The notes beneath the pieces are model-generated. The model ran no database searches. It was not told the origin of the DNA and saw only the letters and a list, made by a program, of their open reading frames with translations. Shown here piece after piece: positions 33,977-56,934 of a stretch of 64,000 bases of DNA. Source of the DNA: Maribacter algarum (ex Zhang et al. 2020) (lineage in GTDB: Bacteria; Bacteroidota; Bacteroidia; Flavobacteriales; Flavobacteriaceae); the NCBI RefSeq assembly GCF_005885635.1, contig NZ_VATY01000004.1, positions 310,001 to 374,000 on the forward strand, read 5' to 3'. Position numbers and translations under genes: made by a program. The stretch's first letter is position 1; each line of letters starts with the position of its first letter.

Positions 33977-34978
33977 CTAAACCTCCATATACTTCGCAGG
34001 CTCATTTTCAAAACTCACCTTACACCCATCACAGCAGAAATACACCTTCTCCCCTTCGTATTCTACAATATGTTTTGGGTTTTTTTTGGAGACCGGTACG
34101 TTACAAACCGGGTTGATATAATAGTCTTCGGCAAACTTTTCATTTACGGGTGCTGAGCTTTCTGTAGTGGAGGTTTCATGTACAGGCATATTATCAGCAG
34201 CATTGCCATTTCTAAAATGGTCTATGATTTCCGCCAAAATACTGATGGCTACTTCACTGGCCATTTTGGCATTGATGTCCAATCCAACAGGGCTACGCAA
34301 TTCGTTCGTCCGTTTTTCTGAAATGCCTTGGTCCAACAGGTACTTTCGAATATCCTCTGATTTTTTGGCACTTGCTACAAAACCCACAAACTTCACTGCC
34401 GTCTGTAAGGCTTTACGAACGGAGAGTTCATCATCTTCGCCCTGTGTCGTTACAATGATATAGGTATTCGAAACACTCTTAAACGACCGAAAATCCACTT
34501 TATCTTTTACTTGATAGGCTGAAGGAAACATTTGCAGATCCGCATCACTGGCCATCACAGAAACCTTAAAATCAGCTGCTGCGGCCAAAAGCGAAAGCTT
34601 TCGTGCGATATTGGACTTCCCTACAATAATCAATTCGGGTTGTGGAATTACGGGTTCTATCATAACTTCTAAGGTTCCTTTACTTTGACAAGACATTACA
34701 TATTCTTTGTAATTAGCTGTTTCGCGCGTACCCCCTTCAGGAGAAATACGAACACGTCGGTAGCGTTTGCTTCTTATGACATCCAAGGCTTCTTTAATGA
34801 CAATACCACGCACACAGCCGCCGCCTATCCAACCGATGAGTTCTCCAGTTTCTAAAATCAGGGCCTTGTCCCCTACTTTTCCTGAACTGGGTGCGATACG
34901 GTCTATCACTTGCGCAATGGCAAAGTTGGAGCCTTTCGCCAGGTGTTCTTCTATTTTTAGGGCAATCTCGTTAAACAT
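33977..34978 (-). CDS. coxF: CoxF/XdhC-type molybdoenzyme maturation protein with C-terminal YHS domain
   Basis: The 333-residue protein has an XdhC/CoxF N-terminal part (SSGKVGDKALILETGELIG, GGGCVRG), a central Rossmann-like region and an unusual C-terminal tail. Residues 284-333 form a YHS domain with C292 in NPVCNVPV and C315, C316 and C319 in YFCCDGC. CoxF in carboxydotrophs takes part in assembling the Mo-S-Cu site of carbon monoxide dehydrogenase; YHS domains bind metals such as copper. The fusion suggests copper supply, which is my inference. It overlaps coxE by eight bases and ends the cox cluster. Confidence 0.83.
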   Translation of the reverse strand: MFNEIALKIEEHLAKGSNFAIAQVIDRIAPSSGKVGDKALILETGELIGWIGGGCVRGIVIKEALDVIRSKRYRRVRISPEGGTRETANYKEYVMSCQSKGTLEVMIEPVIPQPELIIVGKSNIARKLSLLAAAADFKVSVMASDADLQMFPSAYQVKDKVDFRSFKSVSNTYIIVTTQGEDDELSVRKALQTAVKFVGFVASAKKSEDIRKYLLDQGISEKRTNELRSPVGLDINAKMASEVAISILAEIIDHFRNGNAADNMPVHETSTTESSAPVNEKFAEDYYINPVCNVPVSKKNPKHIVEYEGEKVYFCCDGCKVSFENEPAKYMEV

Positions 34979-36107
34979 CCATCAATACTTTTTCCAATTT
35001 CAATAAACTATCCAAGTTGTGTGCCGATTCAAAAGCATCTAAATGGGGCATCACGTTCACCATTCCTTTTTGAATGGGTTGGTAGCCGGCCATTCCCTTT
35101 AATGGGTTGAGCCATACCAAGGTTTTGCATTTTCTTCTAATGGTTCTGACCGCTTCTTTTAGCACAGTTACGTTTCCAGTTTCCAATCCGTCACTTAACA
35201 CCACTACAATGTGTTTTTGACTTAGAAACTTACTGCCGTAGACCGAAAGAAATTCAGTCAACGACTCCCCTATCTTCGTACCACTAGACCAGGAATGTAC
35301 ATTCTTACCGATTTGCTTTAAAACTTCCTGTTCGTTATTCTGTCGTAATAGCGGCGTTACATGCGTCAACTCCGTACTAAAGGTAAAGAACTCCAGGCTT
35401 TTAAAATACTTTTTTAACACCATCACATAACGCAGTAAATAGTAGCTATAGGTATCCATCGAACCGCTAACATCCAAAATAAAAACGACTTTGCGCTTTT
35501 CTTTTCGTTTGCGTTTGTGTGCTAAATCCAAAAGCATTCCCCCTTTGGAAACCCCATGGCGAATCGTATTTCTGATATCAATACCGCCTTTATTGGCATT
35601 TTCCAGTCTACGTTTGAAACGCATACTCATTTGGTGAAAAAGTTCTTCGGCTAGCTCTTCCAGTTTCTCTTTATCCGTAACATCTACTTTTGAGAAGTCC
35701 GTCATACGTAATCGAATGCTTTCATTCGCACCAACAGTCTCTTTGGCTTCTTGTTCTTTGACTTCTTTCTTCGGGAGTTTAAATTCGGTTCCCAAAAAAA
35801 TGACGGTAGCGGTATCCTTTTCTTTTTTAAGTTGTTTGATTTGCTTTTTCCGCTGCTCTAACTTCTCTTCGTAATAGCGACTCCAAAAGCGTTGGAACAT
35901 TTCATCAAAGCGGTCAAAGTGTTCTTTCCGTTTGCAATAAATCGCCTTTAGGCTGTATTGAAACAATTTACGGTCCAACGCATATCCCCGTTCCGCAATT
36001 TCAAAAGCATCCCTAGTTTCTTGGGGGCCTAGCACAAACTGACGCTCGCGACAATACATCGTAAAGTCTATAAGGCGTTCTTTGAATGTTTTGGTTACGG
36101 CTTGCAA
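34971..36107 (-). CDS. coxE: CoxE-like von Willebrand factor A protein
   Basis: The 378-residue protein has a basic, charged N-terminal half and a VWA domain with MIDAS motif D212-x-S214-x-S216 (LDVSGSMD), then LSDGLETGN. CoxE proteins work with the MoxR ATPase CoxD in inserting sulfur and copper into the CO dehydrogenase active site. The 3' end overlaps coxF by eight bases; coxD lies 97 bases upstream with a repeat between. Length is typical for CoxE. No membrane segment is present. Confidence 0.88.
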   Translation of the reverse strand: MQAVTKTFKERLIDFTMYCRERQFVLGPQETRDAFEIAERGYALDRKLFQYSLKAIYCKRKEHFDRFDEMFQRFWSRYYEEKLEQRKKQIKQLKKEKDTATVIFLGTEFKLPKKEVKEQEAKETVGANESIRLRMTDFSKVDVTDKEKLEELAEELFHQMSMRFKRRLENANKGGIDIRNTIRHGVSKGGMLLDLAHKRKRKEKRKVVFILDVSGSMDTYSYYLLRYVMVLKKYFKSLEFFTFSTELTHVTPLLRQNNEQEVLKQIGKNVHSWSSGTKIGESLTEFLSVYGSKFLSQKHIVVVLSDGLETGNVTVLKEAVRTIRRKCKTLVWLNPLKGMAGYQPIQKGMVNVMPHLDAFESAHNLDSLLKLEKVLMDV

Positions 36108-36204: not shown

Positions 36205-37077
36205 TTAGGTAATAGGAACTAAAAACTCCTGCACGGTTTTATTTCTCACAAACTCCACATCGTCTTTGTGTTTTAAGACACTGCCGATGGTTGTTTTTAC
36301 GATTTCGTCGGTGATGTTTTTTTGGTTCATCAACAAAAGTGTCTTAGCCCAATCTAAGGATTCTGCAATTCCTGGAGGTTTGTGTAGACTTGACTTTCTC
36401 AAATTGTGTATAAACGTAACTACCTGGGTTGCCAATTCTTCGTCAATATTTGGAAGTTTTTTCGCAATGATATCTATCTCACCGGTTTTAGACGGGAAGT
36501 CCACCCAATGGTAGAGGCATCGTCTTCGTAAGGCATCACTTAGTTCCCTGGTGCGATTGGAAGTCAAGATGACCAAAGGTTTTGATTTCGCAGGAATCGT
36601 TCCCAATTCGGGAATACTGATTTGAAAATCAGATAACAGTTCCAACAAATACGCTTCGAATTCCTCATCTGCCCTATCGATTTCATCAATCAACAAAACC
36701 ACAGGTTTGTCTGCACTAATGGATTGTAGCAAAGGTCTTTGGAGGACGTAATCCATTCCGAAGATTTGATTTCCCAAGGCTTTCTTGTCTTTTTCTTGTT
36801 CGAAAAGTTTGATATGGAGGAGCTGTTTCTGGTAGTTCCATTCGTAAATGGTGGTACTTACATCCAATCCCTCATAACATTGCAATCGAATGAGGTTTGT
36901 TCCTAAATGCTCAGCCAAGGTTTTGGCCAACATGGTTTTTCCCACTCCGGGATTGCCTTCTAAAAGCAATGGTTTTTCCAAATTCTTCAACAGAAAAATG
37001 GAAGTTGCCAATTCTTCATTTAAGATGTAATCATGCTTATAAAAATCTTGTATAAGCGCATCAATTTCCTTGTTCAA
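36205..37077 (-). CDS. coxD: CoxD-like MoxR family AAA+ ATPase
   Basis: The 290-residue AAA+ protein has Walker A G41-NPGVGKT (to T48), Walker B LLIDEIDRAD, and sensor-type LTSNRTRELSDALRRRC. CoxD is the chaperone ATPase needed for sulfuration and copper insertion into the CO dehydrogenase bimetallic cluster in the best-studied carboxydotroph. The neighbouring coxE VWA gene fits the standard MoxR-VWA pairing. A strong hairpin lies between it and coxG upstream. Confidence 0.9.
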   Translation of the reverse strand: MNKEIDALIQDFYKHDYILNEELATSIFLLKNLEKPLLLEGNPGVGKTMLAKTLAEHLGTNLIRLQCYEGLDVSTTIYEWNYQKQLLHIKLFEQEKDKKALGNQIFGMDYVLQRPLLQSISADKPVVLLIDEIDRADEEFEAYLLELLSDFQISIPELGTIPAKSKPLVILTSNRTRELSDALRRRCLYHWVDFPSKTGEIDIIAKKLPNIDEELATQVVTFIHNLRKSSLHKPPGIAESLDWAKTLLLMNQKNITDEIVKTTIGSVLKHKDDVEFVRNKTVQEFLVPIT

Positions 37078-37153: not shown

Positions 37154-37624
37154 CTATACTGCTGCCTCTGCTGCGGCTAATTTTTTTGAGAAATTCGTAA
37201 CAAATTGTTTGAACAATTGATTCGACACCGTTGAAATCAGCCTTGAACCAAATTGTGCAATTTTTCCGTTTACCGTTACATCCATTATTGCGTCTAACTT
37301 CACGCCACCTTCATCACGGTCGGAAAGGTCAATGGTCATTTTCATTTCTGCATTTCCATTTCCCTTGGCGTCAACGCCATCCCCTGAAATTATAATTTTT
37401 CGGTTGTCAACATCTATTTCATTATAGTAAATATCGGCATTGTATTTCACACCCATGGGTCCGAACTTCATCCCAACTTTTCCTTTGTAATGGTTATCGC
37501 CCACTTTTTCGTCAATAGATACTCCTGGTACGCAATCCATTATTTTTTCTGGGTCTATTAGGTGTTCCCACACCAATTCAGTGCTTTGTGGCACCTCAAA
37601 TGATTTATCTAATTGTGTTTTCAT
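37154..37624 (-). CDS. coxG: CoxG-like SRPBCC family protein
   Basis: The 156-residue protein matches CO dehydrogenase subunit G-type SRPBCC proteins: VPQSTELVWEHLIDPEKIMDCVPG, then YKGKVGMKFGPMGVKY, and QFGSRLI near the end. CoxG is not part of the catalytic trimer. In carboxydotrophs it has been linked to membrane recruitment of the enzyme, and related domains bind hydrophobic electron carriers. This protein lacks the C-terminal membrane anchor of longer homologues. A family A hairpin lies 11 bases before its ATG. Confidence 0.86.
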   Translation of the reverse strand: MKTQLDKSFEVPQSTELVWEHLIDPEKIMDCVPGVSIDEKVGDNHYKGKVGMKFGPMGVKYNADIYYNEIDVDNRKIIISGDGVDAKGNGNAEMKMTIDLSDRDEGGVKLDAIMDVTVNGKIAQFGSRLISTVSNQLFKQFVTNFSKKLAAAEAAV

Positions 37625-37863: not shown

Positions 37864-40230
37864 CTAAGCCTTCGCCTTCTGCGCTTGAATGGCCTCCCAA
37901 ACCTTTGCAGGTGTAATAGGAATATCCAAATGCTTAATTCCTAAGGGAGCGACAGCATCGATAATGGCGTTTGCAATTGCTGGTGGTGCGCCCACAGTTG
38001 GCGATTCAGCAACACCTTTTGCACCTAATGGGTGATGTGGTGATGGCGTAATCGTATGACCTGTTTCCCAATGCGGAGACTCTACTGCCGTTGGCACTAG
38101 GTAATCCATCAAGGTTCCGTTTAGAACATTTCCTTCGTCATCATATTCGATACCTTCATACATTGCTGGTGCAATACCTTGGGTTAATCCTCCATGCACT
38201 TGACCCTCAACAATCATTGGATTGATAATGTTTCCACAGTCATCAATGGCAACGAAACGTTTTACATCAATCGCACCAGTTTCTTCTTCTACTTCAACAA
38301 CGCAAATATAAGCGCCATTCGGGAAGGTTAAATTTGGTGGGTCATAGTAATGTGTTGCTTCGAAACCGGGTTCCAATCCTGGTGGAATATTGGTGTAAGC
38401 TGCAAAGGCAACATCTTGAATCGTTTTTGACTTTTCAGGAGCTCCTTTTACAAAGTACTTCCCTACTTCCCATTCAATATCCTCCTCACTTACTTCCAAT
38501 AAGTGCGCTGCGATTTTTTTGCCTTTGTCACGCAATTTACGTGCTGCAATAGCTGCCGCTGCACCTGCCGTTGGTGTACTTCTACTTGCATAAGTACCTA
38601 GTCCGTATGGTGCTGTATCCGTATCTCCTTCATCGATTTCGATGTCGGTATAAGGAATTCCCAGTTCTTCCGCTAGAATCTGTGCGTAGGTTGTTTCGTG
38701 GCCTTGTCCTTGGGACTTGGTCCCGAAACGCGCAAGTGCCTTTCCTGTTGGATGGACTCTTATTTCAGCGCTATCGAACATGGCAATTCCTAAGATATCG
38801 AAATCTTTGGATGGCCCTGCCCCTACTACTTCCGTAAAGGTGCAAATACCGATACCCATTAATTTTCCTTGGGCGCGTTTTTCAGCTTGTTCCTTTTTAT
38901 AATCGTCATAGCCAATCATTTCCATGGCCTTTTCCAAGGTGGCTTTATAATCTCCACTATCATAGCTCCATCCCAATGGAGATTCATACGGAAACTGCTC
39001 TTTCTTGATAAAGTTCTCAAAACGTAAAAGCGCTGGATCCTTATCAATTTCAGCTGCCAATTTATCGACCATACGTTCAATCGCATGCACCGCCTCCGTC
39101 ACACGGAAAGAACAGCGATAGGCAACTCCACCTGGAGCTTTGTTGGTATAGACCGCATCTAATTCTGCAAATGCATGTTCATAATCATATGACCCGGTAC
39201 AAATCGAAAACATTCCCGTAGGATATTTTGATGGATTCGCTGAAGAATCGGTATACCCATGGTCCGCCAATGTAGAAACTTTAAAGGCTTGGATTTTACC
39301 ATCCTTCGTAGCCGCTAGCTCACAATCCATATGATAATCACGAGCAAAACCGTTCACCAAGTTTTCAGAACGGTCTTCAATCCATTTGACAGGTTTTCCG
39401 ATTAAGAAGGTCGCCGCAATCGCAACTACATAGGCAGGATAAACGGGAACTTTACCTCCAAATCCTCCTCCGATATCCGGGGAAATAATTCGAATTTTTT
39501 CTTCCGATAACCCAACATGTCCGGCCACCAGTGCCACGACGGTACGAATTGCATGTGGAGCTTGGGTCGTCAAATAAACCGTGAGTTTTTGCGTATCCTT
39601 GTCATAGGAGGCATTACAACCACAAGTTTCGATAGAAGCTACGTGAATTCTTGGTAGGTAGATGCGTTCTTTTACAACGACATCCGCATTAGCGATAACC
39701 TCATCGGTTTTGGCTCGGTCACCTCTTTCCCAGTGGTAAATCTGATTGTCTTCTTGCCCCTCTTTATCTGGGCGCAACAGAGGCGCATCGTCATCCAAAG
39801 CTTTAAAGGGGTCAACGATGGCCTGCATCGGCTCATAATCGACTTCCACAGCTTCTGCTCCATCTACCGCGACATACCTATCAGTTGCGATAACCGCACA
39901 GACTTCTTGCGACTGGTGCATTACCGTATCCGTAGGCAATACCATTTGTGTATCAGAAAGTAAAGTTGGCATCCAGTGCAGATTGTACTGGGCCAAATCC
40001 TCACCCGTGATAACAGCCAATACACCATCAATCGCTAGTGCTTTTTCTTTGTTGATACTTTTTATTTTGGCATAGGCGTACGGACTTCGTACCATAACCA
40101 TATGTAGTTGCCCAGGCAGTTTCGTATCATCGACATAATTACCTTTGCCGTGCAAAAACCGAGCATCTTCTTTTCTTTTTACAGAGTGACCCATTCCGCC
40201 AACCTCTGCTGATGTTTTACATTTAAACAT
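37864..40230 (-). CDS. coxL: Form I aerobic carbon monoxide dehydrogenase, large (molybdenum) subunit
   Basis: The 788-residue molybdopterin subunit of the xanthine oxidase family carries the loop A370-Y-R-C373-S-F-R376. This AYxCSFR sequence is the recognised mark of true (form I) CO dehydrogenase, whose Cys binds copper of the Mo-S-Cu centre. GGGFGGK (254-260) and the catalytic Glu742 in GAKGVAES are also in place. With CoxS and CoxM it oxidises CO to CO2 and passes electrons to quinones. Xanthine dehydrogenase or form II enzymes would have AYRGAGR or another loop. There is no Tat signal, so it is cytoplasmic. Confidence 0.93.
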   Translation of the reverse strand: MFKCKTSAEVGGMGHSVKRKEDARFLHGKGNYVDDTKLPGQLHMVMVRSPYAYAKIKSINKEKALAIDGVLAVITGEDLAQYNLHWMPTLLSDTQMVLPTDTVMHQSQEVCAVIATDRYVAVDGAEAVEVDYEPMQAIVDPFKALDDDAPLLRPDKEGQEDNQIYHWERGDRAKTDEVIANADVVVKERIYLPRIHVASIETCGCNASYDKDTQKLTVYLTTQAPHAIRTVVALVAGHVGLSEEKIRIISPDIGGGFGGKVPVYPAYVVAIAATFLIGKPVKWIEDRSENLVNGFARDYHMDCELAATKDGKIQAFKVSTLADHGYTDSSANPSKYPTGMFSICTGSYDYEHAFAELDAVYTNKAPGGVAYRCSFRVTEAVHAIERMVDKLAAEIDKDPALLRFENFIKKEQFPYESPLGWSYDSGDYKATLEKAMEMIGYDDYKKEQAEKRAQGKLMGIGICTFTEVVGAGPSKDFDILGIAMFDSAEIRVHPTGKALARFGTKSQGQGHETTYAQILAEELGIPYTDIEIDEGDTDTAPYGLGTYASRSTPTAGAAAAIAARKLRDKGKKIAAHLLEVSEEDIEWEVGKYFVKGAPEKSKTIQDVAFAAYTNIPPGLEPGFEATHYYDPPNLTFPNGAYICVVEVEEETGAIDVKRFVAIDDCGNIINPMIVEGQVHGGLTQGIAPAMYEGIEYDDEGNVLNGTLMDYLVPTAVESPHWETGHTITPSPHHPLGAKGVAESPTVGAPPAIANAIIDAVAPLGIKHLDIPITPAKVWEAIQAQKAKA

Positions 40231-40248: not shown

Positions 40249-40740
40249 TTAAACAGTTGCTTCTTTTTCTTTCGCCATTTCTTTGGCAGCTTGCTGAACG
40301 GACTTTACGATATTGTTGTATCCGGTACATCTGCAAAGATTTCCTGAAATACCCCAACGAATTTCTTCTTCTGTAGGGTTCGGGTTGTTCTTTAACAAAT
40401 CAACAGAACGCATAATCATACCTGGAGTACAGAATCCGCAATGCAGACCATGTTGGTCGTGAAACGCCTGCTGCAACGGATGATTCGTTCCTTCTGGAGC
40501 CAAGCCTTCAATCGTCGTTATCTCTGCACCGTCAGCTCGCACCGTTAGGTACGTACATGCTTTTACTGATTTTCCATCCAACAAAATGGTACATGCACCA
40601 CAGTTAGAAGTATCGCACCCAATGTGGGTACCGGTCATATCTAAATTTTCCCTGATGAAATGAACAAGTAATAAGCGAGAATCTACCTCAGCAGTTACAC
40701 TTTGTCCGTTTATAGTCATTGTTACTTCGTGTTTTGCCAT
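40249..40740 (-). CDS. coxS: Carbon monoxide dehydrogenase small subunit (two [2Fe-2S] clusters)
   Basis: The 163-residue protein has the plant-ferredoxin-type cluster C-x4-C-x2-C ([15 protein letters not shown], with a fourth Cys in VKAC) and the C-terminal cluster motifs CGFCTPG and CRCTGY. It carries electrons from the molybdenum site of CoxL to the FAD of CoxM. The gene lies 18 bases upstream of coxL and 7 bases after coxM. The same fold serves other hydroxylases, and the assignment rests on its place next to form I coxL. Confidence 0.93.
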
Positions 40741-40747
40741 AGTTGTA

Positions 40748-41617
40748 TTATTGTCTTGCTCTTTCCAAAGCCTTGTTCAACATTCTTTTTGTAATCGTAT
40801 TTACGACAGATCTTTTATACGCTTCAGAACCTCTCAAATCTGATTCAGGTTCACAATCCTCGCTGGCAATTTGTCCAACTTGCTCGATAAGCTCGTCTGT
40901 AATTTCTTGTCCACGCAACAGTTCTTCACCTCTTTCCAATCGCATTGGCACAGCGCTTACGTTAGTGAGTCCAATACCTACTTGCTGACATACACCACTA
41001 TCATCTAACTCTACATGCACTGCAACTCCTGCCGTTGCATAATCCCCAACTTTCCGTTCTACTTTATGGTACGCTCCACCACTTCCTTTTTTTGCTTTTG
41101 GTATTTGAATTTCCGTAAGAATATCAGAGGGTTCTAAAGCCGTCATATAAAATCCGTGGAAAAATTCATCAATAGGAATTGTTTTTGTGCCATCTGCACC
41201 TTCGGCAACGATATTTGCTCGCATTGCTAACATAAGAGCTGGCTGGTCATTGGCTGCATCGCCATGAGCGATATTTCCGCCGATAGTACCGACGTTTCGA
41301 ACCGATGGGTCTGCAGTTAGCCAAATCGCATCACCCATAATGGGGTAGCTTTCTTTTAGCAATGTGTTATGCTCCATCTCTGTTTGAGTTGTTAAAGCAC
41401 CAATTTTTAGCATATCGCCGTCTTCCTTAATATAGGATAGTCCTTCGATTTTGCTGATATCGATAATGTGTTCGGGGGTGGCAAAACGGAGTTTCATCAT
41501 CGGCAGCAAACTGTGTCCGCCTGACATGTATTTTGCCTCCTCACCAAGTTCAGATGACAAAGCGATGGCTTCTTTCACGGAAGTCGCTTTGTGATAATTG
41601 AAATTAGCTGGAATCAT
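40748..41617 (-). CDS. coxM: Carbon monoxide dehydrogenase medium (FAD) subunit
   Basis: The 289-residue FAD-binding subunit has [18 protein letters not shown] at its start and the two FAD motifs [12 protein letters not shown] and [17 protein letters not shown]. The C-terminal CO dehydrogenase flavoprotein domain follows. It takes electrons from CoxS and delivers them to the respiratory chain. It is the first gene of the minus-strand coxMSL order, the canonical order in carboxydotrophs. A 235-base region separates it from the divergent cysteine desulfurase. Confidence 0.92.
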
Positions 41618-41852: not shown

Positions 41853-43025
41853 ATGTATTCCCAACTCTATTTTGACTACAATGCCACAACTCCTTGTGCT
41901 AAAGAAGTAGTGGAAAGCATGTTACCCCATTTTCATGAGGATTTTGGGAATCCCTCAAGCAGTCATCACCCTTACGGATGGTTGGCCAAAAGTGCTGTTG
42001 AAGATGCCACATTATCCATAGCAAAAAATTTAGGAGTTTCTCCAAGTAGTTTGATTTACACTTCTGGATCTACGGAAAGTATTAATATGGTATTGAAGGG
42101 TGTTGCCCGAAAAATGCAATCCAAAGGAAAACATATCATTACAACAAAAGCTGAACACAAAGCTGTTTTGGATACCTGTGCCTTTTTGGAAGAAGATGGA
42201 TTTGAAATCAGTTATTTGGATGTGAATCCCGACGGATTGATTTCTTTGGAAACATTAAACAAAACACTACGCCCAGATACCATTTTAGTTTCAGTCTTAT
42301 ATGCTAATAACGAAACAGGAATCATTCAACCCTTAGAAGATATTTCAAAATTGGTCCACGAAAACGGAAGCCTTCTTTTTTCAGATACCACTCAAGCCCT
42401 AGGGAAATTAGATTTGAAAGAAGTGCTAAACCAAGTAGATTTTGCTTGCTTCTCCGCACATAAAGTCTACGGGCCTAAAGGAATCGGATTGGTTTATATT
42501 AAGGATAACGAAAATGGTGATAGTCTTCCAAGCTTAATCCAAGGAGGAGGACAACAAAAAAGACAACGTGGCGGAACGATAAATACTCCATTAATTGTCG
42601 GTTTTGCAAAAGCGATTGAGTTAGCCATCAATAATCTCGATTCTGAAAAAAAACGCTTAGGACAATTACGGAATCAATTAGAGTCAGGTCTACGTGAAAT
42701 TGAAATGGCCATTTCCAACAATGCAAACCGTGAACGTTTGGCAAATACTGTTCATGTTTCTTTTCCTTTTGTGGATGGCGCTAATTTATTGACAGCACTA
42801 AGTAGACAGATTGCAGTATCAAATGGGTCCGCCTGTAACTCTGCTTCTGTGGAACCCTCTCATGTTTTAACTGCCATGGGCGTCGAGCGCAGTTTGGCTT
42901 ATGCGTCTTTACGATTGAGTATCGGGAGATACACAACTCAAAAGGATATAAAAAATGCTGTTGAGATTATTACTAAAGAGGTTGCTAAGCAACGCGAAGC
43001 TAATATACTTTGGGAGCGCAGATGA
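41853..43025 (+). CDS. NifS/IscS-like cysteine desulfurase
   Basis: The 390-residue PLP enzyme has YFDYNATTPCAKEVVESM, the PLP lysine K204 in SAHKVYGPKG, QGGGQQKRQRGGT and the catalytic C328 in NGSACNSAS. It removes sulfur from cysteine as a persulfide. No iscU or suf genes lie nearby. Instead it diverges from coxM and converges with an xdhC gene. A likely job is to supply the sulfido ligand of the molybdenum site, as desulfurases do with XdhC in other molybdoenzymes; this role is inference from context. Confidence 0.87.
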   Translation: MYSQLYFDYNATTPCAKEVVESMLPHFHEDFGNPSSSHHPYGWLAKSAVEDATLSIAKNLGVSPSSLIYTSGSTESINMVLKGVARKMQSKGKHIITTKAEHKAVLDTCAFLEEDGFEISYLDVNPDGLISLETLNKTLRPDTILVSVLYANNETGIIQPLEDISKLVHENGSLLFSDTTQALGKLDLKEVLNQVDFACFSAHKVYGPKGIGLVYIKDNENGDSLPSLIQGGGQQKRQRGGTINTPLIVGFAKAIELAINNLDSEKKRLGQLRNQLESGLREIEMAISNNANRERLANTVHVSFPFVDGANLLTALSRQIAVSNGSACNSASVEPSHVLTAMGVERSLAYASLRLSIGRYTTQKDIKNAVEIITKEVAKQREANILWERR

Positions 43026-44293: not shown

Positions 44294-45277
44294 ATGAAGG
44301 ATTCCTTTGACAGAACGATAGATTATGTGCGTATTGCGGTAACAGACCGCTGTAATTTACGATGCTTTTATTGCATGCCCGCAGAAGGCATTCCGTATGA
44401 ACCAAAAGCCCATCTACTTAGCTATGAGGAAATTACTCGCTTGCTAAGAGTCCTAGGTGGACTCGGTTTTCAGAAAGTCCGGTTTACTGGTGGAGAACCT
44501 TTTCTACGCAAAGACTTCATGCAATTGTTGGAGAATACCGCCGGACTGGAAGACTATAAATCCATACATATTACTTCAAACGGAACGCTTTTACAAAAAC
44601 ATATTCCGAAATTAAAGGAATTGGGCATTACCAAAATCAACCTCAGCATTGATTCACTGGACAAAGAACGGTTTCATAAAATTACACGTCGTGATGATTT
44701 TGAAAAAGTGATGCAGACTTTTCATATGTTAGTCGATAATGGGTTTCAAATCAAATTGAATGCCGTAATAATGAAGGGTATTAATACACAAGATATTATT
44801 CCGTTGGCAGAACTTGCCAAAGATTACCCTGTCGATGTTCGCTTTATTGAAGAAATGCCCTTTAATGGAGGCTATAAAGAAAATATAGAAATGTATTCCG
44901 CCCGTGATATTTATTCGGATTTAAAGGCTCATTATTCGAATTTAGATAAACTACCAAGTAAACATGGCGATACAGCAAGTTTACTTTCGGTGCCAGGATA
45001 TAAAGGATATATTGGAGTAATCGCAGCCTTCTCAAGAACCTTTTGCAATACTTGTAATCGTCTTCGGATTTCTTCCAAAGGAGAAATCAAAAGTTGTCTC
45101 TATGACGATGGTGTTTTCAATATTCGTGATTTTATGCGTTCGGGAGTTTCCGATGAAGAATTAGCGGAAAAATTCCAGGAAATTGTTCGCTTAAAACCAA
45201 AAGATGGATTCGAAGCAGAAAAAATGCGTAAAGCTCCCAAGGAAGCGATGCAGAGTATGAGTAGTATTGGAGGCTAG
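44294..45277 (+). CDS. moaA: GTP 3',8-cyclase MoaA
   Basis: The 327-residue radical SAM enzyme starts molybdenum cofactor synthesis from GTP. The N-terminal [4Fe-4S] site is C20-x3-C24-x2-C27 (CNLRCFYC), followed by FTGGEPFLR. The C-terminal cluster uses C251, C254 and C268. The protein ends in Gly-Gly as functional MoaA should. It is the first plus-strand gene after the second xdhC, with moeA 84 bases downstream beyond a large inverted repeat. Its partner moaC lies at 52963 on the other strand. Confidence 0.95.
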   Translation: MKDSFDRTIDYVRIAVTDRCNLRCFYCMPAEGIPYEPKAHLLSYEEITRLLRVLGGLGFQKVRFTGGEPFLRKDFMQLLENTAGLEDYKSIHITSNGTLLQKHIPKLKELGITKINLSIDSLDKERFHKITRRDDFEKVMQTFHMLVDNGFQIKLNAVIMKGINTQDIIPLAELAKDYPVDVRFIEEMPFNGGYKENIEMYSARDIYSDLKAHYSNLDKLPSKHGDTASLLSVPGYKGYIGVIAAFSRTFCNTCNRLRISSKGEIKSCLYDDGVFNIRDFMRSGVSDEELAEKFQEIVRLKPKDGFEAEKMRKAPKEAMQSMSSIGG

Positions 45278-45290
45278 ATAAAGCCTTGCC

Positions 45291-45360
45291 TGTCATTTCG
45301 AGCGGAGTCGAGAAATAAGCAGGCTAACGTATAAGCATTTCGACTCCGCTCAATGTGACA
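45291..45360. repeat. Family B inverted repeat pair upstream of moeA
   Basis: The left arm TGTCATTTCGAGCGGAGTCG (45291-45310), then AGAAAT, pairs with the right arm ATTTCGACTCCGCTCAATGT then GACA (45337-45360). The spacer is about 20 bases. It fills almost the whole 84-base moaA-moeA gap and ends one base before the moeA start codon. Confidence 0.8.
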
Positions 45361-45361
45361 G

Positions 45362-46576
45362 ATGGAAAATACTTTTATCCCATACGAAAAAGCCCTTTCG
45401 ATTTTAGAAGTACACAAAGGCGATTTCCCAGAAGAAAACAGAGATTTAGAAGAATGTATTGGTGCCTATCTGGCCGAAGATTTAATTGCCGACCGAGACT
45501 TCCCTCCTTTCGATAGAGTGACGATGGACGGCATTGCTATTGTCTATTCCACTTTTGAATCTGGTAAAAGAGATTTCCATATCGAAGACACCGCTGCTGC
45601 AGGAACTCCTCAAAAAAAACTCGCTGATACATCAAACTGCATAGAAGTGATGACTGGGGCGATAATGCCCAATGGCGTTGACACCGTGATTCGGTACGAA
45701 GATCTTACGATTGAAGATAATAAAGCCACTATTAATCTTGATGCTTTAAAGTATAAACAAAATGTTCATTTCAAGGGAATAGATATTGCTAAAGGAACAG
45801 TAATTGTTTCCAAAGGAAAACAGTTGTCAAGTGCTGAAATCAATATTGCCGCTGCGGTTGGAAAGGCAACTTTGAAAGTCCAGAAAATGCCCAAAGTGGT
45901 TATTTTTTCTACAGGTGATGAGTTGGTTCCTGTTGATCAAACTCCGGAATTACATCAAATACGACGTTCGAACATTTATGGAATACAGGCTACCTTAAAA
46001 GAATGGGGCCTAGCTTCAGACTTGCAACATTTGGCTGATGATAAAGAAGAAATGCTACGGACTATTTCTAAGTCTTTAGAAGAATATGACCTCTTTATTT
46101 TTACAGGAGGTGTATCTAAGGGAAAGTTTGACTATTTGCCTGATGTGCTTGAAGAGCTTAAGGTCGAAAAACATTTTCATAAAATTCAACAACGGCCAGG
46201 GAAGCCATTTTGGTTTGGCAGTAACACAAATGGAAAAAAGATTTTTGCTCTTCCTGGGAATCCGGTTTCTTCATTTGTTTGTGTATACATGTATTTGCAA
46301 TTTTGGTTGCAAAAGTCATTGGGAATAGAACCCGAAACCCATTTTGTGAAACTGAAAAACGATGTCGAATTCAAACCAGACCTGGTCTATTTCTTAGAAG
46401 CAACTTTAGAAAGTCAATCGGATGGGAGTTTAGTTGCTGAAGCCAAAAAAGGAAATGGTTCAGGTGATTTTGCAAATCTTGTAAAAACTGATGGATTCTT
46501 AATATTACCGCAAAATAAAAGCCAATTTTTTGCGAATGAGGTTTATCCTTTTGTATCTTATCGAACGAAATGGTAA
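45362..46576 (+). CDS. moeA: Molybdopterin molybdenumtransferase MoeA
   Basis: The 404-residue enzyme inserts molybdate into adenylated molybdopterin. Family blocks are RDFPPFDRVTMDGIAI, GAIMPNGVDTVIRYED, FSTGDELVPV, FTGGVSKGKFDYLPD and RPGKPFWFG, followed by the ALPGNPVS block. Domain order and length are normal. Its substrate needs a MogA-type adenylyltransferase, which is not in this window. The start codon abuts a large inverted repeat. Confidence 0.95.
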   Translation: MENTFIPYEKALSILEVHKGDFPEENRDLEECIGAYLAEDLIADRDFPPFDRVTMDGIAIVYSTFESGKRDFHIEDTAAAGTPQKKLADTSNCIEVMTGAIMPNGVDTVIRYEDLTIEDNKATINLDALKYKQNVHFKGIDIAKGTVIVSKGKQLSSAEINIAAAVGKATLKVQKMPKVVIFSTGDELVPVDQTPELHQIRRSNIYGIQATLKEWGLASDLQHLADDKEEMLRTISKSLEEYDLFIFTGGVSKGKFDYLPDVLEELKVEKHFHKIQQRPGKPFWFGSNTNGKKIFALPGNPVSSFVCVYMYLQFWLQKSLGIEPETHFVKLKNDVEFKPDLVYFLEATLESQSDGSLVAEAKKGNGSGDFANLVKTDGFLILPQNKSQFFANEVYPFVSYRTKW

Positions 46577-50548: not shown

Positions 50549-51328
50549 TTAAAATTCTAACTGTAATCCATTCGCTAGTAAGACTCGAATACCCACTAGC
50601 AATACTAAAATTGCAGTAACCACCTTAATCCCATTTCCTGTTAGCTTACCAAGACTTAAACGTATTCCTATTTGGCCTCCAATGAAAACGGCAACTACAA
50701 GGCTTATGCCTTCAATCCATGGAAATTCAAAAGTTCCCTTTGTCAATAAGCCTCCTATTCCAGAAATAGAATTTACCAGTATAAAGAAGCTAGCAAGTGC
50801 CGCTATTTTTATGGATTTATCCCACTTCATATGATTTAGAATGGGTGCCAAAAAAATACCCCCGCCGATACCTACAAGTCCAGAAAGCAATCCAATTCCC
50901 GCTCCCAAAAAATAGGTAACATATGGCGGATAATTTGGATTTACTTCTTCCGAATTCTTGCCCTTTGTAGTTTGATAAATCAATGCCAAGGCTGAAATAA
51001 TTAAGGCCGCTCCTAGAATAATAAAAAAAGTATTTTCGGATAAACGGAATCGTGCTCCTAAAAATGCCAAAGGAATACTGGTTACAATGAAAGGGAGAAA
51101 TTTTTTAAAGTCCAGATGTCCTTTTTTCCAATAGAGGTAGCTACTACCGGAGACAACCACGAGGTTACAGATTAAAGCAGTACTACGGATTGCAAAAAAA
51201 CTAACAAAAACCAATGCCAATAGCGCCAAATAACTGGACCCTCCGCCAAAACCAACGGAGGAATACAAGGTAGCAATGACCAAAAAGCCAAGCATTAATA
51301 AGACAAGTTCAGGAAGGGTTAGGAGCAT
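50549..51328 (-). CDS. TauE/SafE family anion permease
   Basis: The 259-residue membrane protein has about eight helices and the family's repeat structure, with SVGFGGGSSYLALLALV near the start and GIGLLSGLVGIGGGIFLAPIL in the second half. TauE/SafE proteins export sulfite, sulfoacetate or other organic anions. The start overlaps the moeB stop by 10 bases, so it is translated with the molybdenum cofactor genes. It might export a sulfur by-product of cofactor sulfuration or transport an oxyanion; this is inference. Confidence 0.87.
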   Translation of the reverse strand: MLLTLPELVLLMLGFLVIATLYSSVGFGGGSSYLALLALVFVSFFAIRSTALICNLVVVSGSSYLYWKKGHLDFKKFLPFIVTSIPLAFLGARFRLSENTFFIILGAALIISALALIYQTTKGKNSEEVNPNYPPYVTYFLGAGIGLLSGLVGIGGGIFLAPILNHMKWDKSIKIAALASFFILVNSISGIGGLLTKGTFEFPWIEGISLVVAVFIGGQIGIRLSLGKLTGNGIKVVTAILVLLVGIRVLLANGLQLEF

Positions 51329-52386
51329 TCGGCCAAATACTGGTTTAGACCTCCTAAAATACTAAAAACTGAACTTTCTGGATGTGCATTTCTTAGTTGT
51401 CTTAAAGCGGTTTCACTTCGCTTACCAGATTGACAAAGTAAATACACTGGAAGAGAAAAATTGATTTTATTGGAATTCGCTTCCAACTCATTCAAAGGAA
51501 TATGAATGGAATCTGGAAGATGAAAATTAGTAAACTCTTCATTCGTTCGAATATCAACGATTTGGGCCTTCTCAATCAATAGCCTTTGCAATTCATCTAC
51601 TGAAACGATAGGAACTATTTCACAGGGGTCATTCCATTCGTAAAAAGCTTGCAACTTCTTTATTTCAAGGTTCTTTGGTTGTAGTTTAAATTTTATTTTT
51701 TGGTAGGATTGCTGAAGTCCGTCAAAAATTAAAAGTTTTCCTGAAAGTACTTCGCCTATTCCGGTTACTAATTTAATTGCTTCCAAAGCTTGAAGGTTTC
51801 CTATAATTCCTGGAATGATTCCCAATACCCCATGCTCATTACAATTAGGCACTTCATTTTCATTAGGCATATTTGGGAAAAGACAGCGGTAGGTCGGTCC
51901 ATCCTTATAATTGAAAACACTTACTTGCCCTTCATACCCATGCAAAGCACCATAAACAAAAGGTTTATTTAGAATCACGCAAGCGTCATTTACCAAATAT
52001 CGTGTTGGAAAGTTATCCGAAGTATCGACTACAACATCATAATCCGTAATAATTTCAAGAGCGTTTTTGGTAGTTAAAAAAGTATTGTAAACGACAATAT
52101 CATTATCGGGATTTTGAGCCTTTAGTTTCTCAAAAGCCGTAATTACTTTAGACTCCCCAATATCGTTCTCGCCATAAAGTACTTGACGATGTAAGTTAGT
52201 AATAGAAACCTCATCATTGTCGACAATGCCAATTTTTCCGACCCCCATGGCGTTAAGATAAGTCAAAACTGGGACGCCAAGGCCGCCCGCGCCAATGACC
52301 AAAATCTTAGCTTTTGCTAGCCTTTTTTGGCCTTCAAGGCCGAAGCCTTTTAAGGTTGTTTGCCTTATGTAACGCCTTTGGTTCAA
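51319..52386 (-). CDS. moeB: Molybdopterin-synthase adenylyltransferase with rhodanese domain
   Basis: The 355-residue protein has an E1-like ThiF/MoeB domain (IGAGGLGVPVLTYLNAMGVG, DNDEVSITNLHRQ, DTSDNFPTRYLVND) and a C-terminal rhodanese domain with C318 in CQSGKRS. It adenylates the Gly-Gly tail of MoaD and passes sulfur to it, combining the roles of MoeB and a sulfurtransferase. The Zn-type Cys pairs of MoeB appear reduced to single Cys (YRCLF, DPCEI). It overlaps mobA by four bases and the TauE-like gene by ten. Confidence 0.92.
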   Translation of the reverse strand: MNQRRYIRQTTLKGFGLEGQKRLAKAKILVIGAGGLGVPVLTYLNAMGVGKIGIVDNDEVSITNLHRQVLYGENDIGESKVITAFEKLKAQNPDNDIVVYNTFLTTKNALEIITDYDVVVDTSDNFPTRYLVNDACVILNKPFVYGALHGYEGQVSVFNYKDGPTYRCLFPNMPNENEVPNCNEHGVLGIIPGIIGNLQALEAIKLVTGIGEVLSGKLLIFDGLQQSYQKIKFKLQPKNLEIKKLQAFYEWNDPCEIVPIVSVDELQRLLIEKAQIVDIRTNEEFTNFHLPDSIHIPLNELEANSNKINFSLPVYLLCQSGKRSETALRQLRNAHPESSVFSILGGLNQYLAECS

Positions 52387-52979
52387 ACCTGAGCCAATTT
52401 TACTAATGCCTCTCTATACTCTGCCTCAGAATTTGCATTCAACAATACATTTTCATTTGCTGGAAACACCAATTTCGTATCATGATTAATGAGATATTTT
52501 CTGGGGCAGGTTCCGTTACCACTATTTAAGTATTCAACCGATGCTACAAAAGCATGAGGTTCCCAAATAGCGCACAGGGGTTCGGGCAAAGGATTCTTTT
52601 TTAGCGCAAGGGCTGTTGCTTGTTTTGTCGTATCTCTCTTGGCAATCAATTCCTTCAAAGCTTCTAAATCCATTAACGGAAGGTCGCAGGCCAAAACAAG
52701 CCAAGCCACTTCTGGGTATTTCTTATGTGCGGAAAGCAATCCGTTATACGGACCGCAATACTCATTTAAATCAACAATGGTTTGCGTTTGTGATGGAAGT
52801 TGTGCTTCTTGCTCTTCACGAAGACTAATAAAAGTTTCTTCGCATACCTGACTCAACAAATCGTACAAATATTCGCGCTGGGGTACTCCATGATAGGGTA
52901 TCAATCCCTTATCGGTTCCCATGCGAGTGCTCTTTCCTCCCGATAAAACGAGTCCGTATAGTCTAGCGGTTGAAGTCAT
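52383..52979 (-). CDS. mobA: Molybdenum cofactor nucleotidyltransferase, MobA-like
   Basis: The 198-residue protein has the nucleotidyltransferase motif LSGGKSTRMGTDKG (residues 12-25) and ACDLPLMD. MobA attaches GMP to molybdenum cofactor. The related MocA uses CTP and typically has A-A-G in place of the second and third motif residues, so this one looks guanylyl-type. The enzymes encoded here belong to the family that often needs the cytosine form. It overlaps moaC by 17 bases and moeB by four, within the moa operon. Confidence 0.88.
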   Translation of the reverse strand: MTSTARLYGLVLSGGKSTRMGTDKGLIPYHGVPQREYLYDLLSQVCEETFISLREEQEAQLPSQTQTIVDLNEYCGPYNGLLSAHKKYPEVAWLVLACDLPLMDLEALKELIAKRDTTKQATALALKKNPLPEPLCAIWEPHAFVASVEYLNSGNGTCPRKYLINHDTKLVFPANENVLLNANSEAEYREALVKLAQV

Positions 52980-53436
52980 TCTTTCCTCCTGTTTTTTGTT
53001 CTAATTGTACTTCCGAAATTTTTATGTCATGAGATAGTGCTTTGCACATATCATAAATGGTCAATGCGCTCACGGAAACGCCCGTTAACGCTTCCATCTC
53101 TACGCCCGTTTGCTCGTTACATTTTACTTTGCAGACGATCTGTAAAGCATTATCTATGGGAGTTATATCAATCTGAATTTTAGAAAGATTCAATTGATGG
53201 CAAAGAGGAATCAACTCTGCCGTTTTTTTTACAGCCTGTATTCCTGCTATTACTGCCGTTTGAATAATACTTCCCTTATGGCCTAAGAAGTCTTGCGAAG
53301 CCAGTTTTTCGAATACATCCGAAGGAAAAACAACTTTGCCTGATGCAACCGCAGTTCGAACACTTGCTTTCTTGCTTGATACGTCAACCATAGAGGCCTT
53401 ACCGGATTCATCTATATGTGAGAGTTCTTTTGCCAT
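52963..53436 (-). CDS. moaC: Cyclic pyranopterin monophosphate synthase MoaC
   Basis: The 157-residue enzyme makes cPMP together with MoaA. Conserved blocks are HIDESGKASMVDVS, PLCHQLNLSKIQID, and GVEMEALTGVSVSALTIYDM. Length is that of a free-standing MoaC, with no MoaB fusion. It overlaps mobA by 17 bases, and a family B repeat lies just upstream in the 80-base gap after moaE. Confidence 0.95.
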   Translation of the reverse strand: MAKELSHIDESGKASMVDVSSKKASVRTAVASGKVVFPSDVFEKLASQDFLGHKGSIIQTAVIAGIQAVKKTAELIPLCHQLNLSKIQIDITPIDNALQIVCKVKCNEQTGVEMEALTGVSVSALTIYDMCKALSHDIKISEVQLEQKTGGKNDFNR

Positions 53437-54174: not shown

Positions 54175-56451
54175 CTATCCCAAAATTGGTTTGGATGCCA
54201 TATTGGTCGCAAACGGCTGCTTGTACATACGATTTCCTGTTGCTTTTTTCATGGCAATAGCTACTGCCGCTCCAGCTGGAGGTAAGGTCGGCTCACCTAA
54301 TCCAGTGGGACTTAAAGTATTTTTCACAAAATGCGTTTCAACGATTGGCGTTTCATTCATTCGAATCAAACGGTATTTGTCATAATTGTTCGCTGTTGGC
54401 ATTCCGTTTTCAAAACCAAAATCCCCGTACATTGAATGTCCTACTCCGTCTATGGCTCCACCTTCAATCTGGTTTTTAGCACCTAATGGATTTATTACAA
54501 TTCCGCAATCCACCGCAACGGTTATCTTCTGGATTACAGGTCGATTGTTTTTCATTACAACATCAGCAACCTCAGCAACATGTGTATTGTGGCAGTAGTA
54601 AGCACAAACACCTTGAAACACGCCATCTTTCGGAGTTCGATATCCTGATTTTTCCACGGCTAATTTCAGTACATCTTGTAAGCGTTCCGCAGAATACTGA
54701 ATTCTGTCATCGGTTGTACCTTTTACTTTTTCCAACATATCCAATCGCATTTGTACCGGGTCTTTGCCCATATCTTCGGCCAGTTCATCTAAGAAGCTTT
54801 GTTCAGCATATGAAAGGAAGTTGGTATACGGAGCTCTCCATGCACCTGTTGTAATATTACTGTCATATTTGGCAACATCTACCTGATAGTTGTCAAGTGC
54901 TCCTGCCGGGAAGAAATTCGGAATCAATCCGTACATATTACCCCCTACAGCAGCCTCTTTTAAGTGATAGCCTGTAATTTCACCATCTTTGATGGATGCT
55001 GCAATACGATATTTAATCGCTGGACGATAAACCCCCGTGGTCATATCATCCTCACGAGTTGAAAACATTTTTACTGGTCTTCGGATTTTATCTGAAATTT
55101 CGGCGGCTTCATATACGAAGTCTCCATAAAGCCTTCTTCCAAAACCACCTCCCATTCGGGTCATTTCTAATCGAATATCTTTTTCATCCCTACCCAATAA
55201 ATTCGCAACTGTACTTGCCGCAGAAGCTGGAGTTTGAACTGGGCCCACCAAATGAATTTTTGAATCCGTAACATTCGCATAGAAATTCATGGGCTCCATA
55301 CAGTTATGAGGAAGGAACGGTGATTCGTATGTTCGTTCCACTACCTTATCTGCTTGTTTAAAAGCCTTTTTTACATCTCCATCTTTTCTTAGGTTGGTGA
55401 AGTCCTTCCCATCCAATAAATCCATCAAAATCTTATCATGAGCCTTTGTGCTTTCCAATGGTGAACCATCACTCCATAGCGCTTTGATTGTTTTTTTAGC
55501 TTTGATTGCCGCCCAAGAATTTTCTGCAATAACAACCACTTTTTCAGATGGGGCTAATTTGGCCGTCCAATCTATTTGCTCCTTTTCTAACATGGCTTTT
55601 GCCTTTTCGCCAATTTTGATAACATCAATAACTCCCGGCATCGCCTTAGCCTCAGTATCATCGTAAGATTCTAGAACTTGGCCAAATGCTGGCGGACGCA
55701 AAACGGAAGCATACACCATACCTTCTGCTTTATAATCTAATCCGAATAAAGGTTTTCCTGTTATAATTTTATCAATATCTACATTACCCACATCGGTTCC
55801 AATCAAGGTATAATCTTTGGGGTCTTTTAATTCAATTGTCTCTGCTGGAGGTTGCTCACCTTCGGCTAAAGACTCGATAAGAGCTTTTCGCTTCGCAGCT
55901 CTCTCTGCTTCCAAAGCAGCCGCCTCATCAACAACATCTCCATAACCAAGTGTTTCTCCCTTCGCATTGGTAATCACACCTTGTTTTGCAGTACACTCAG
56001 AAGCATCAACCCCCCATTTTGCCGCAGCAGCATTAACAAGCATCTGTCTTGCAAAGGCTCCTGTTTGACGTAGAGCATCCCATCCAAATCGGATAGACTG
56101 GCTACCACCAGCAACTTGACGGACATAGTTTTGGGTGTCTAAAATTCCCTGAACCACATTTACATTTTCCCAAGCCACATCAAGCTCTTCAGCAATAATC
56201 ATGGGCATAGAAGTTTTCACACCTTGACCGATTTCAGGGTTCGGCGAGAACAAGGTCACCATACCTTCTTTGGATATCTTTATGAAGGCATTGAAGTCAT
56301 TATAATCGAGTTTGGAAATATCGACCGGCATTTTCACCGTGTCTTTACATGCTGTGAAAAAATTAAAACCGATTAGCATTCCGCCACTCGCAAGTGAAGA
56401 AGTTCTTAAGAAAGACCTTCTGCTAAATTTTGTTTGTATTGTACTTGACAT
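54175..56451 (-). CDS. IorB-type molybdopterin hydroxylase subunit with Tat signal
   Basis: The 758-residue xanthine oxidase-family molybdopterin subunit resembles isoquinoline 1-oxidoreductase beta. The N-terminal S-R11-R12-S-F-L motif followed by a hydrophobic stretch is a twin-arginine signal. GGGFGRRLYGDF and the catalytic Glu in GLGEPTLPPAG are present. It lacks the form I CO dehydrogenase loop. It pairs with the small Fe-S subunit just upstream and has no FAD subunit, so electrons probably go to a periplasmic cytochrome. The physiological substrate, probably an aldehyde or N-heterocycle, is unknown. Confidence 0.87.
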   Translation of the reverse strand: MSSTIQTKFSRRSFLRTSSLASGGMLIGFNFFTACKDTVKMPVDISKLDYNDFNAFIKISKEGMVTLFSPNPEIGQGVKTSMPMIIAEELDVAWENVNVVQGILDTQNYVRQVAGGSQSIRFGWDALRQTGAFARQMLVNAAAAKWGVDASECTAKQGVITNAKGETLGYGDVVDEAAALEAERAAKRKALIESLAEGEQPPAETIELKDPKDYTLIGTDVGNVDIDKIITGKPLFGLDYKAEGMVYASVLRPPAFGQVLESYDDTEAKAMPGVIDVIKIGEKAKAMLEKEQIDWTAKLAPSEKVVVIAENSWAAIKAKKTIKALWSDGSPLESTKAHDKILMDLLDGKDFTNLRKDGDVKKAFKQADKVVERTYESPFLPHNCMEPMNFYANVTDSKIHLVGPVQTPASAASTVANLLGRDEKDIRLEMTRMGGGFGRRLYGDFVYEAAEISDKIRRPVKMFSTREDDMTTGVYRPAIKYRIAASIKDGEITGYHLKEAAVGGNMYGLIPNFFPAGALDNYQVDVAKYDSNITTGAWRAPYTNFLSYAEQSFLDELAEDMGKDPVQMRLDMLEKVKGTTDDRIQYSAERLQDVLKLAVEKSGYRTPKDGVFQGVCAYYCHNTHVAEVADVVMKNNRPVIQKITVAVDCGIVINPLGAKNQIEGGAIDGVGHSMYGDFGFENGMPTANNYDKYRLIRMNETPIVETHFVKNTLSPTGLGEPTLPPAGAAVAIAMKKATGNRMYKQPFATNMASKPILG

Positions 56452-56469
56452 GATTTTAGATGTTTACGG

Positions 56470-56934
56470 TTAGGCCATTTTTTTCTCAGCAGCCTTTGCA
56501 ACTGCATTCTCAATACGATTATATGATGCACATCTGCATATATTACCGGTCATCGCATTTCTGATTTCTTCCCTTGAAGGATTAGGGTTCTTTTCTAGAA
56601 AGGCTGAAGCCGTCATTATCTGACCAGCCTGGCAGTATCCACATTGCGGAACATCAATTGCCTTCCAGGCTTCTTGAACCGGGTGTGAACCATCTTCAGA
56701 CAATCCTTCGATAGTTGTGATTTCTTTTCCGTCCAATTGTGAAATTTGTAGTTGGCAACTGCGAGTTGCGTTACCATCCACATGAACGGTACATGCACCA
56801 CATTGTCCTATTCCGCAACCAAACTTGGTACCTACCATATCCAATTGGTCGCGTAGTGCCCAAAGTAATGGGGTGTCTTCAGCAGCCTCAATTGATTGAG
56901 AACTACCATTAATTTTTAGATTGTACGTTGGCAT
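56470..56934 (-). CDS. IorA-type [2Fe-2S] subunit
   Basis: The 154-residue protein has two iron-sulfur motif sets: CGIGQCGACTVHVDG with a fourth Cys in TRSC, and CGYCQAGQI with ICRCASY. It forms the electron-transfer subunit of the IorAB-type hydroxylase encoded 18 bases downstream. It has no signal peptide, so it should be carried out with the Tat-signal subunit. It is the first gene of the long minus-strand run leading into the moa, mob and moe genes. Confidence 0.9.
   Translation of the reverse strand: MPTYNLKINGSSQSIEAAEDTPLLWALRDQLDMVGTKFGCGIGQCGACTVHVDGNATRSCQLQISQLDGKEITTIEGLSEDGSHPVQEAWKAIDVPQCGYCQAGQIMTASAFLEKNPNPSREEIRNAMTGNICRCASYNRIENAVAKAAEKKMA

Follow-up and report, generated by a model that had tools for sequence, protein, structure and literature searches.

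The cox operon and its genomic neighbourhood

The window, that is, the whole stretch of 64,000 nucleotides of Maribacter DNA analysed here, carries a complete cox operon on its minus strand in the order coxM-S-L-G-D-E-F. The genes of the operon, the functional features within them, and two genes beyond it are as follows.

40748..41617, minus strand: coxM, FAD subunit, 289 aa, first gene of the M-S-L series; Pfam FAD_binding_5 and CO_deh_flav_C above cut-off
40249..40740, minus strand: coxS, [2Fe-2S] subunit, 163 aa; Pfam Fer2_2 and Fer2 above cut-off
37864..40230, minus strand: coxL, form I molybdenum subunit, 788 aa; identified by TIGR02416, the tree, and the nearest solved chain 8uem_A
39103..39123, minus strand: AYRCSFR loop of CoxL, residues 370-376, aligned with Afipia 385-391; Cys373 is at the copper-ligand position
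38005..38007, minus strand: codon of Glu742, the catalytic glutamate position of CoxL, aligned with Afipia Glu763
37154..37624, minus strand: coxG, 156 aa, probable membrane-recruitment factor; Pfam COXG 90.0 bits against 22.2
36205..37077, minus strand: coxD, MoxR-type AAA+ ATPase, 290 aa; Pfam AAA and AAA_5 above cut-off, and operon position
34971..36107, minus strand: coxE, VWA-domain protein, 378 aa; Pfam VWA_CoxE 176.8 bits against 26.4
33977..34978, minus strand: coxF, XdhC-type maturation factor with a C-terminal YHS, 333 aa; Pfam XdhC_CoxI, XdhC_C, and YHS, and a structure model
33986..34120, minus strand: YHS metal-binding domain of CoxF, residues 287-331; PF04945 42.6 bits against 30.3
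41853..43025, plus strand: divergent class-V aminotransferase or NifS-like cysteine desulfurase; Pfam Aminotran_5 249 bits
43097..44203, minus strand: second XdhC-family protein, no metal tail, 368 aa; Pfam XdhC_CoxI and XdhC_C, outside the CoxF clade

The coxL frame runs from 40230 to 37864 and encodes its 788 aa with zero internal stops. The start of coxE was placed at a TTG codon by mechanical calling, and the true start is uncertain; its end is overlapped by coxF by 8 bases. The probable role of coxG is given by analogy with Afipia, as described in the accessible part of PMC4240915. The gene order of the operon is common to most flavobacterial loci. The operon resembles that of Afipia (Oligotropha) carboxidovorans OM5 in the coxM-S-L order, the AYRCSFR motif, the positions of the Cys, Gln, and Glu residues, and the presence of coxD, coxE, coxF, and coxG; however, coxG is located after coxF in Afipia OM5 and before coxD in the window.

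The divergent NifS-like gene adjoins cox in 37 of 43 flavobacterial loci, and its product is a possible candidate for the sulfur source of the Mo-S site. MoaC, MobA-like, and ThiF/rhodanese proteins were identified by Pfam close to cox at 51319-53436, and a MoaA-like frame (44294) and a MoeA-like frame (45362) were assigned by reading the translations of the stretch 44294-46576. These predicted genes place the cox locus within a Moco-synthesis neighbourhood. TauE-, ThiF/rhodanese-, MobA-like, and MoaC-type genes are consecutive at 50549-53436 on the minus strand. A second molybdenum hydroxylase pair, in which a 154-aa [2Fe-2S] subunit accompanies a MoCoBD protein of 758 aa, is found at 54175-56934 on the same strand. 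The best Pfam stretches of the 758-aa protein come in the order MoCoBD_2 then MoCoBD_1, unlike those of CoxL.

Form I identity of CoxL and the host genome

Pairwise alignment was performed between the window CoxL and the CoxL of Afipia (Oligotropha) carboxidovorans. Identity was found at 453 of 785 aligned residues (57.7%), and Cys373, Gln223, and Glu742 correspond to Cys388, Gln240, and Glu763, respectively. GGGFGGK begins at residue 254. The earlier note had read a form I signature AYRCSFR with the copper-ligand Cys373 in this protein, together with an intact catalytic Glu742 and GGGFGGK; the alignment bears out both readings, and the residue numbering was exact. The protein scores 1205.5 bits on the curated family TIGR02416 (aerobic CO dehydrogenase large subunit), for which the cut-off is 991.15, and this is far above chance. 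The closest solved structures are 8uem (annotated as CO dehydrogenase CoxL; 1046 bits), 1ffu (1038), and 1n5w (1011), which are the three form I enzymes with solved structures. Assignment as a xanthine dehydrogenase was rejected, with only 394 bits on XdhA NF043082 against a cut-off of 780.

Phylogenetic placement, which the earlier note had proposed as a check, was carried out on 91 rows via a quick maximum-likelihood search (LG+G4) with SH-aLRT support and no bootstrap, and some long branches were flagged. The 75 form I rows are split from the 16 form II rows with a support of 100 (SH-aLRT). The window CoxL falls within form I, fully supported, where it belongs to a clade of 8 sampled flavobacterial rows (support 100). 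This clade adjoins Cyclobacteriaceae, an uncultured lineage, and one Rhodothermales-order row, and the larger group around it is a mix of Chloroflexota, Gemmatimonadota, Acidobacteriota, and others. Form II was ruled out by motif, gene order, and tree. The motif, the Cys and Glu positions, the coxM-coxS-coxL order, the monophyly, and the curated family score all identify the protein as a form I CoxL.

Form I coxL in Bacteroidota has already been published, partly from abundant marine species, in the accessible parts of PMC6794299, PMC10305171, PMC13203968, and PMC13240472. The window CoxL is therefore an ordinary new member, and the idea that form I is new to Bacteroidota is ruled out by these reports. 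PMC13203968, in the part available, applies three criteria to form I, namely phylogeny, motif, and coxMSL order, and all three are found for the window CoxL. A search for CoxL relatives gave 57 loci from named genomes, the majority of them Flavobacteriaceae with at least 91% identity. The close relatives belong to Robiginitalea aurantiaca, Maribacter, Eudoraea, Robertkochia, and Pelagihabitans; their form I loci share this operon, including CoxF-YHS, and in most cases have the NifS-like gene too, and no relevant difference from the window was seen. The surprise that the earlier note attached to form I in Bacteroidota was thus overstated. What stands is that form I is a minority trait in Flavobacteriaceae, with 11 of 397 genomes above the form I cut-off.

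The host genome (5.11 Mb, 99.94% complete) contains six PF02738 matches, one of which is form II (AYRGAGR) and located on contig 12. Like that of the window, the form II operon combines the three subunit genes coxS, coxL, and coxM with neighbouring genes of the coxD and coxE types; however, its order is D-E-S-L-M and the copper-ligand Cys is absent. No XdhC-family gene was found in the 19.2-kb locus of this operon. The absence of carbon-fixation genes, claimed before from the window, holds across the whole host genome for RuBisCO, which was the one enzyme covered, with 0 matches to PF00016 and 5 of 14 control genomes positive. On this enzyme, the host would fit the earlier suggestion of a carboxydovore, a CO oxidiser that is not autotrophic. 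It is almost certain that the window holds a complete form I Mo-Cu CO dehydrogenase operon of a heterotrophic flavobacterium. Judged from the genes alone, CO oxidation by the Maribacter host is plausible.

CoxF and its metal-binding tail across form I

The window CoxF contains XdhC_CoxI (54.9 bits against 24.3) and the XdhC Rossmann domain XdhC_C (91.9 against 29.7), followed by the YHS tail. AlphaFold was used to model the protein (mean pLDDT 83.1). The model displays an XdhC-like core, a linker at residues 260-278 with pLDDT below 50, and an ordered YHS with 74 to 88 per ten-residue block over residues 281-330. In the model, the YHS is a separate fold from the core, tethered by a linker predicted to be disordered. 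A fold search matched the XdhC part to the XdhC-type structures 3on5 and 2we7/2we8, and no YHS or HMA match was found among the matches listed (best 50). Across 13 flavobacterial comparisons, pN/pS was 0.18 for the core, 0.54 for the linker, and 0.13 for the YHS, given as uncorrected proportions with pS near 0.7. The constraint on the YHS is stronger than that on the linker.

The predicted metal-ligand residues of the window YHS are Cys292, Cys315, and Cys319. Of the 76 CoxF ORFs with a YHS, 75 retain all three, and the one that does not is from Deinococcus sp. AJ005. The fourth-ligand position is Asn289 in the window, and the residues found at this position in the 76 ORFs are N (43), D (31), C (1), and S (1). 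The Deinococcus CoxF (L076:11526-12644) has a decayed YHS in which the first and second Cys are replaced, with 29.1 bits against the cut-off of 30.3. Cys97 in the core is kept in 103 of 105 CoxF-type ORFs, and its motif is the suspected Cu site of PMC4240915, in the part of that paper available. A YHS or HMA tail is present in 84/105 of these ORFs, the phytase-type motif RHG.R in 2/105, and RGD in 5/105; the set includes near-identical strains and extra copies, and the counts are not independent. The CoxF of Afipia OM5 has 280 aa and no metal tail, whereas that of the window has 333 aa with the YHS. In two Neomarinimicrobiota form I loci, an additional CoxF-like gene without a tail lies downstream of coxE (L043:15689-16480 and L046:9468-10382). 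No report of an XdhC-YHS fusion, or of a YHS tied to copper and carbon monoxide dehydrogenase, was found in the open-licence PMC literature, and the XdhC-YHS architecture itself will be visible in domain databases.

The distribution of CoxF was surveyed at loci flanked on each side by 5.5 kb or more. Genes were counted within 8 kb, a core score >115 bits defined the CoxF type, and flank-truncated loci (32 form I and 6 form II) were omitted. The form II loci were sampled from 14 of 51 Pseudomonadota rows, 7 of 11 Rhodothermales-order rows, 13 of 70 Chloroflexota rows, 17 of 18 Flavobacteriaceae rows, and 3 others, and additional form II copies entered the survey along with other loci. A CoxF-type gene is present beside form I in 76/76 loci and beside form II in 0/53. 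Another XdhC was found in 8 of the 53 form II loci, none of them with a YHS or HMA tail. Both coxD and coxE were found in 59 form I loci each, and in 31 and 30 form II loci, respectively; they were sought with flavobacterial queries, and divergent copies may escape. The tails of the 76 form I CoxF proteins are YHS in 54, HMA in 6, and none in 16 (mostly Afipia-type), and they are distributed by group as follows.

Flavobacteriaceae form I loci: YHS 30/30
Chloroflexota form I loci: YHS 17/17
Rhodothermales order form I loci: HMA 5/5
Pseudomonadota form I loci: YHS 1/13, none 12/13
Other named form I loci: YHS 2/3, HMA 1/3
Plasmid-record form I loci: YHS 4/8, none 4/8 (Afipia, Marivivens, Rhizobium jaguaris, Nonomuraea)

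Actinomycetota are represented by one record, Nonomuraea, with no tail. The tail is not indispensable, because it is missing from the CoxF of Afipia and from 14 of 15 Pseudomonadota form I loci with CoxF. Among the Chloroflexota form I loci (within L142-L163), recognisable coxD and coxE are each present in 2/17 and CoxF-YHS in 17/17; coxD and coxE seem dispensable or located elsewhere. CoxF-YHS is kept in Thermomicrobium roseum, a demonstrated CO oxidiser according to the accessible text of PMC6794299.

A survey of whole genomes gave a similar pattern. Form I was detected in 11 of 397 Flavobacteriaceae genomes, and XdhC-YHS in exactly those 11. Similarly, 23 of 151 Chloroflexota genomes have form I, and XdhC-YHS was found in those 23 plus G914. 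Form I is present in 17 of 349 Pseudomonadota genomes and XdhC-YHS in 2, both of them form I genomes. For the 70 genomes of the Rhodothermales order, form I was found in 9 and XdhC-HMA in the same 9, and none of the 12 further XdhC matches in this order is an XdhC-HMA. Overall, the fusion was detected in 45/60 genomes with form I and in 1/907 without; only the top few XdhC candidates per genome (e.g., 5 or 6) were scored, and some fusions may have gone undetected. Three centre genomes (G402, G407, and G399) were picked for having form I. In G914, where no form I was detected, XdhC-YHS occupies 2-655 of contig 20 (L220), so close to the edge of this 4.8-kb contig that the genes upstream are hidden; this fusion indicates either a missing sequence stretch or a true exception. 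No YHS was found in seven XdhC matches that extend beyond the core via stop-codon read-through, five of them in Flavobacteriaceae. Tail-less CoxF-like cores are present in genomes without form I (G549, G524, G576, and many Chloroflexota). This indicates that the tail, and not the core, tracks form I genome-wide, and the CoxF core alone was dropped as a form I marker. The YHS association is probably the result of one ancestral fusion, and the form I YHS loci are therefore not independent.

In the Rhodothermales order, XdhC-HMA replaces XdhC-YHS in 9/9 form I genomes; the HMA was above the Pfam cut-off in the 6 that were checked (L042, L134, L135, L140, L141, and L227) and was recognised by motif only in 3. 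In the PDB, the HMA tail matches ATP7-type ATPases and CopZ best, and its zinc and mercury relatives have weaker E-values. CopZ and similar HMA domains are known chiefly for carrying copper. The copper domains of CopZ and the ATP7-type proteins belong to the same fold family as the Rhodothermales CoxF tail, whereas the window has a YHS in that place. On the CoxL tree, the HMA label needs 4 changes, 3 of them forced by branches starred on that tree. This count is too high: L137 entered it as lacking CoxF, yet the CoxF of its genome, with HMA, is located on another contig (L227). On the CoxF tree, all 8 HMA rows lie on one side of a branch with a weak support of 79. Several independent swaps from YHS to HMA were considered; the claim made here is therefore limited to at least one replacement of YHS by HMA.

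Proposed copper delivery to the form I enzyme

The form I cluster is described as a unique bimetallic [CuSMoO2] in the accessible part of PMC4240915. According to the same text, Afipia coxE and coxF mutants give an enzyme without copper, both genes are needed for copper insertion, and CoxE and CoxF depend on each other. Because of this interdependence, the copper role was assigned to CoxF by sequence motif. On Afipia CoxF, that paper proposes an RGD contact along with a phytase motif and a motif suspected to be a Cu site, and it calls for study at the protein level. For the YHS, the available portion of PMC4626032 reports that the domain makes the adenylyl cyclase of Mycobacterium phlei specifically copper-activated, mentions a YHS domain crystallised without metal, and models the copper site with three Cys and Asp as the fourth ligand. 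The cyclase YHS resembles that of CoxF in its C-terminal position, its three conserved Cys, and the same spacing class; however, it is fused to a cyclase, is read as a sensor, and has Asp at the first ligand position, where the window CoxF has Asn. The window YHS has the three Cys of the model, and Asn289 in place of the Asp.

Two unrelated metal-carrier domains are found at the same position of CoxF, and both are tied to the copper form of the enzyme; copper handling is therefore the best explanation. It is rather probable that the form I operon of the window includes a CoxF whose YHS tail acts as a tethered copper donor to the [CuSMoO2] site. The evidence also tilts, by a little, towards a more general reading, in which CoxF is a dedicated form I copper-insertion factor, the YHS (HMA in Rhodothermales, absent in the Afipia lineage) is the tethered Cu donor, and the fusion is a marker. 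Asn289 in place of Asp, the zinc-like relatives of the YHS, the YHS domain crystallised without metal, the weaker zinc and mercury matches of the HMA, the tail-less CoxF of Afipia, and the probable single origin of the YHS fusion stand against the tail as a copper donor.

Part of this evidence also suits a different role, in which the YHS is a zinc module for structure or protein docking, CoxF acts solely as a chaperone of the XdhC type and shields the sulfurated molybdenum, and the copper has another source. Zinc-finger chains are among the PDB sequence relatives of the YHS, CoxF has no tail in Afipia and most Pseudomonadota, and a sulfur-protecting role for CoxF is also suggested in the accessible text of PMC4240915. 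Such a module is unlikely, though worth keeping in mind. It does not account for why the tail goes with form I, which contains copper, rather than with form II, or why a CopZ-like HMA is present in the same place in 9/9 form I genomes of one order.

With the tail as a tethered copper donor, CoxF would mature the apo-enzyme together with CoxD and CoxE, which would serve in sulfuration and membrane docking. The core of CoxF would bind the immature Mo site, the YHS would load Cu, and the flexible linker would swing the Cu to the core (Cys97) or straight to the Mo-S site. Copper would then be handed to the sulfurated molybdenum to give the active enzyme. CO would be oxidised at the [CuSMoO2] centre, which the AYRCSFR loop would hold through Cys373, and Glu742 would serve as the base. 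The electrons would pass from CoxL to CoxS and CoxM and then to the quinone pool, supplementing respiration and not supporting autotrophy.

The operon could also be a real form I operon without energy gain, in which case it would be silent, serve for CO removal, or act on another substrate. The possession of form I does not prove expression, and Robiginitalea biformata, which has a hydrogenase, took up no H2 according to the available part of PMC10305171, an example of how genes alone can mislead. However, the operon, the active-site residues, and the maturation genes are intact and the same gene order is found in most flavobacterial loci, and a lack of energy gain is considered improbable. 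Still less probable is a tail that is a copper sensor and not a donor, with Cu switching CoxF or keeping it off the enzyme until Cu is available: the one biochemically studied YHS that was found behaves as a copper switch of a cyclase (PMC4626032, accessible part), but the HMA tails match copper ATPases and CopZ best in the PDB, and CopZ-like domains are known chiefly as carriers. In Afipia, moreover, copper insertion itself depends on CoxF (PMC4240915, accessible part).

The less ordinary feature of the operon is the metal-binding CoxF tail, which occurs almost only with form I; CoxL itself is of an already known kind. The CoxF tail may be the way in which the enzyme gets its copper, and the finding of the tail makes the question of copper delivery a simple domain-deletion test. 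Form I CO dehydrogenases take CO out of the ocean and the air. If the proposed role is true, the XdhC-YHS/HMA fusion would be a second, independent genomic marker of copper-containing CO dehydrogenases, beside the CoxL motif.
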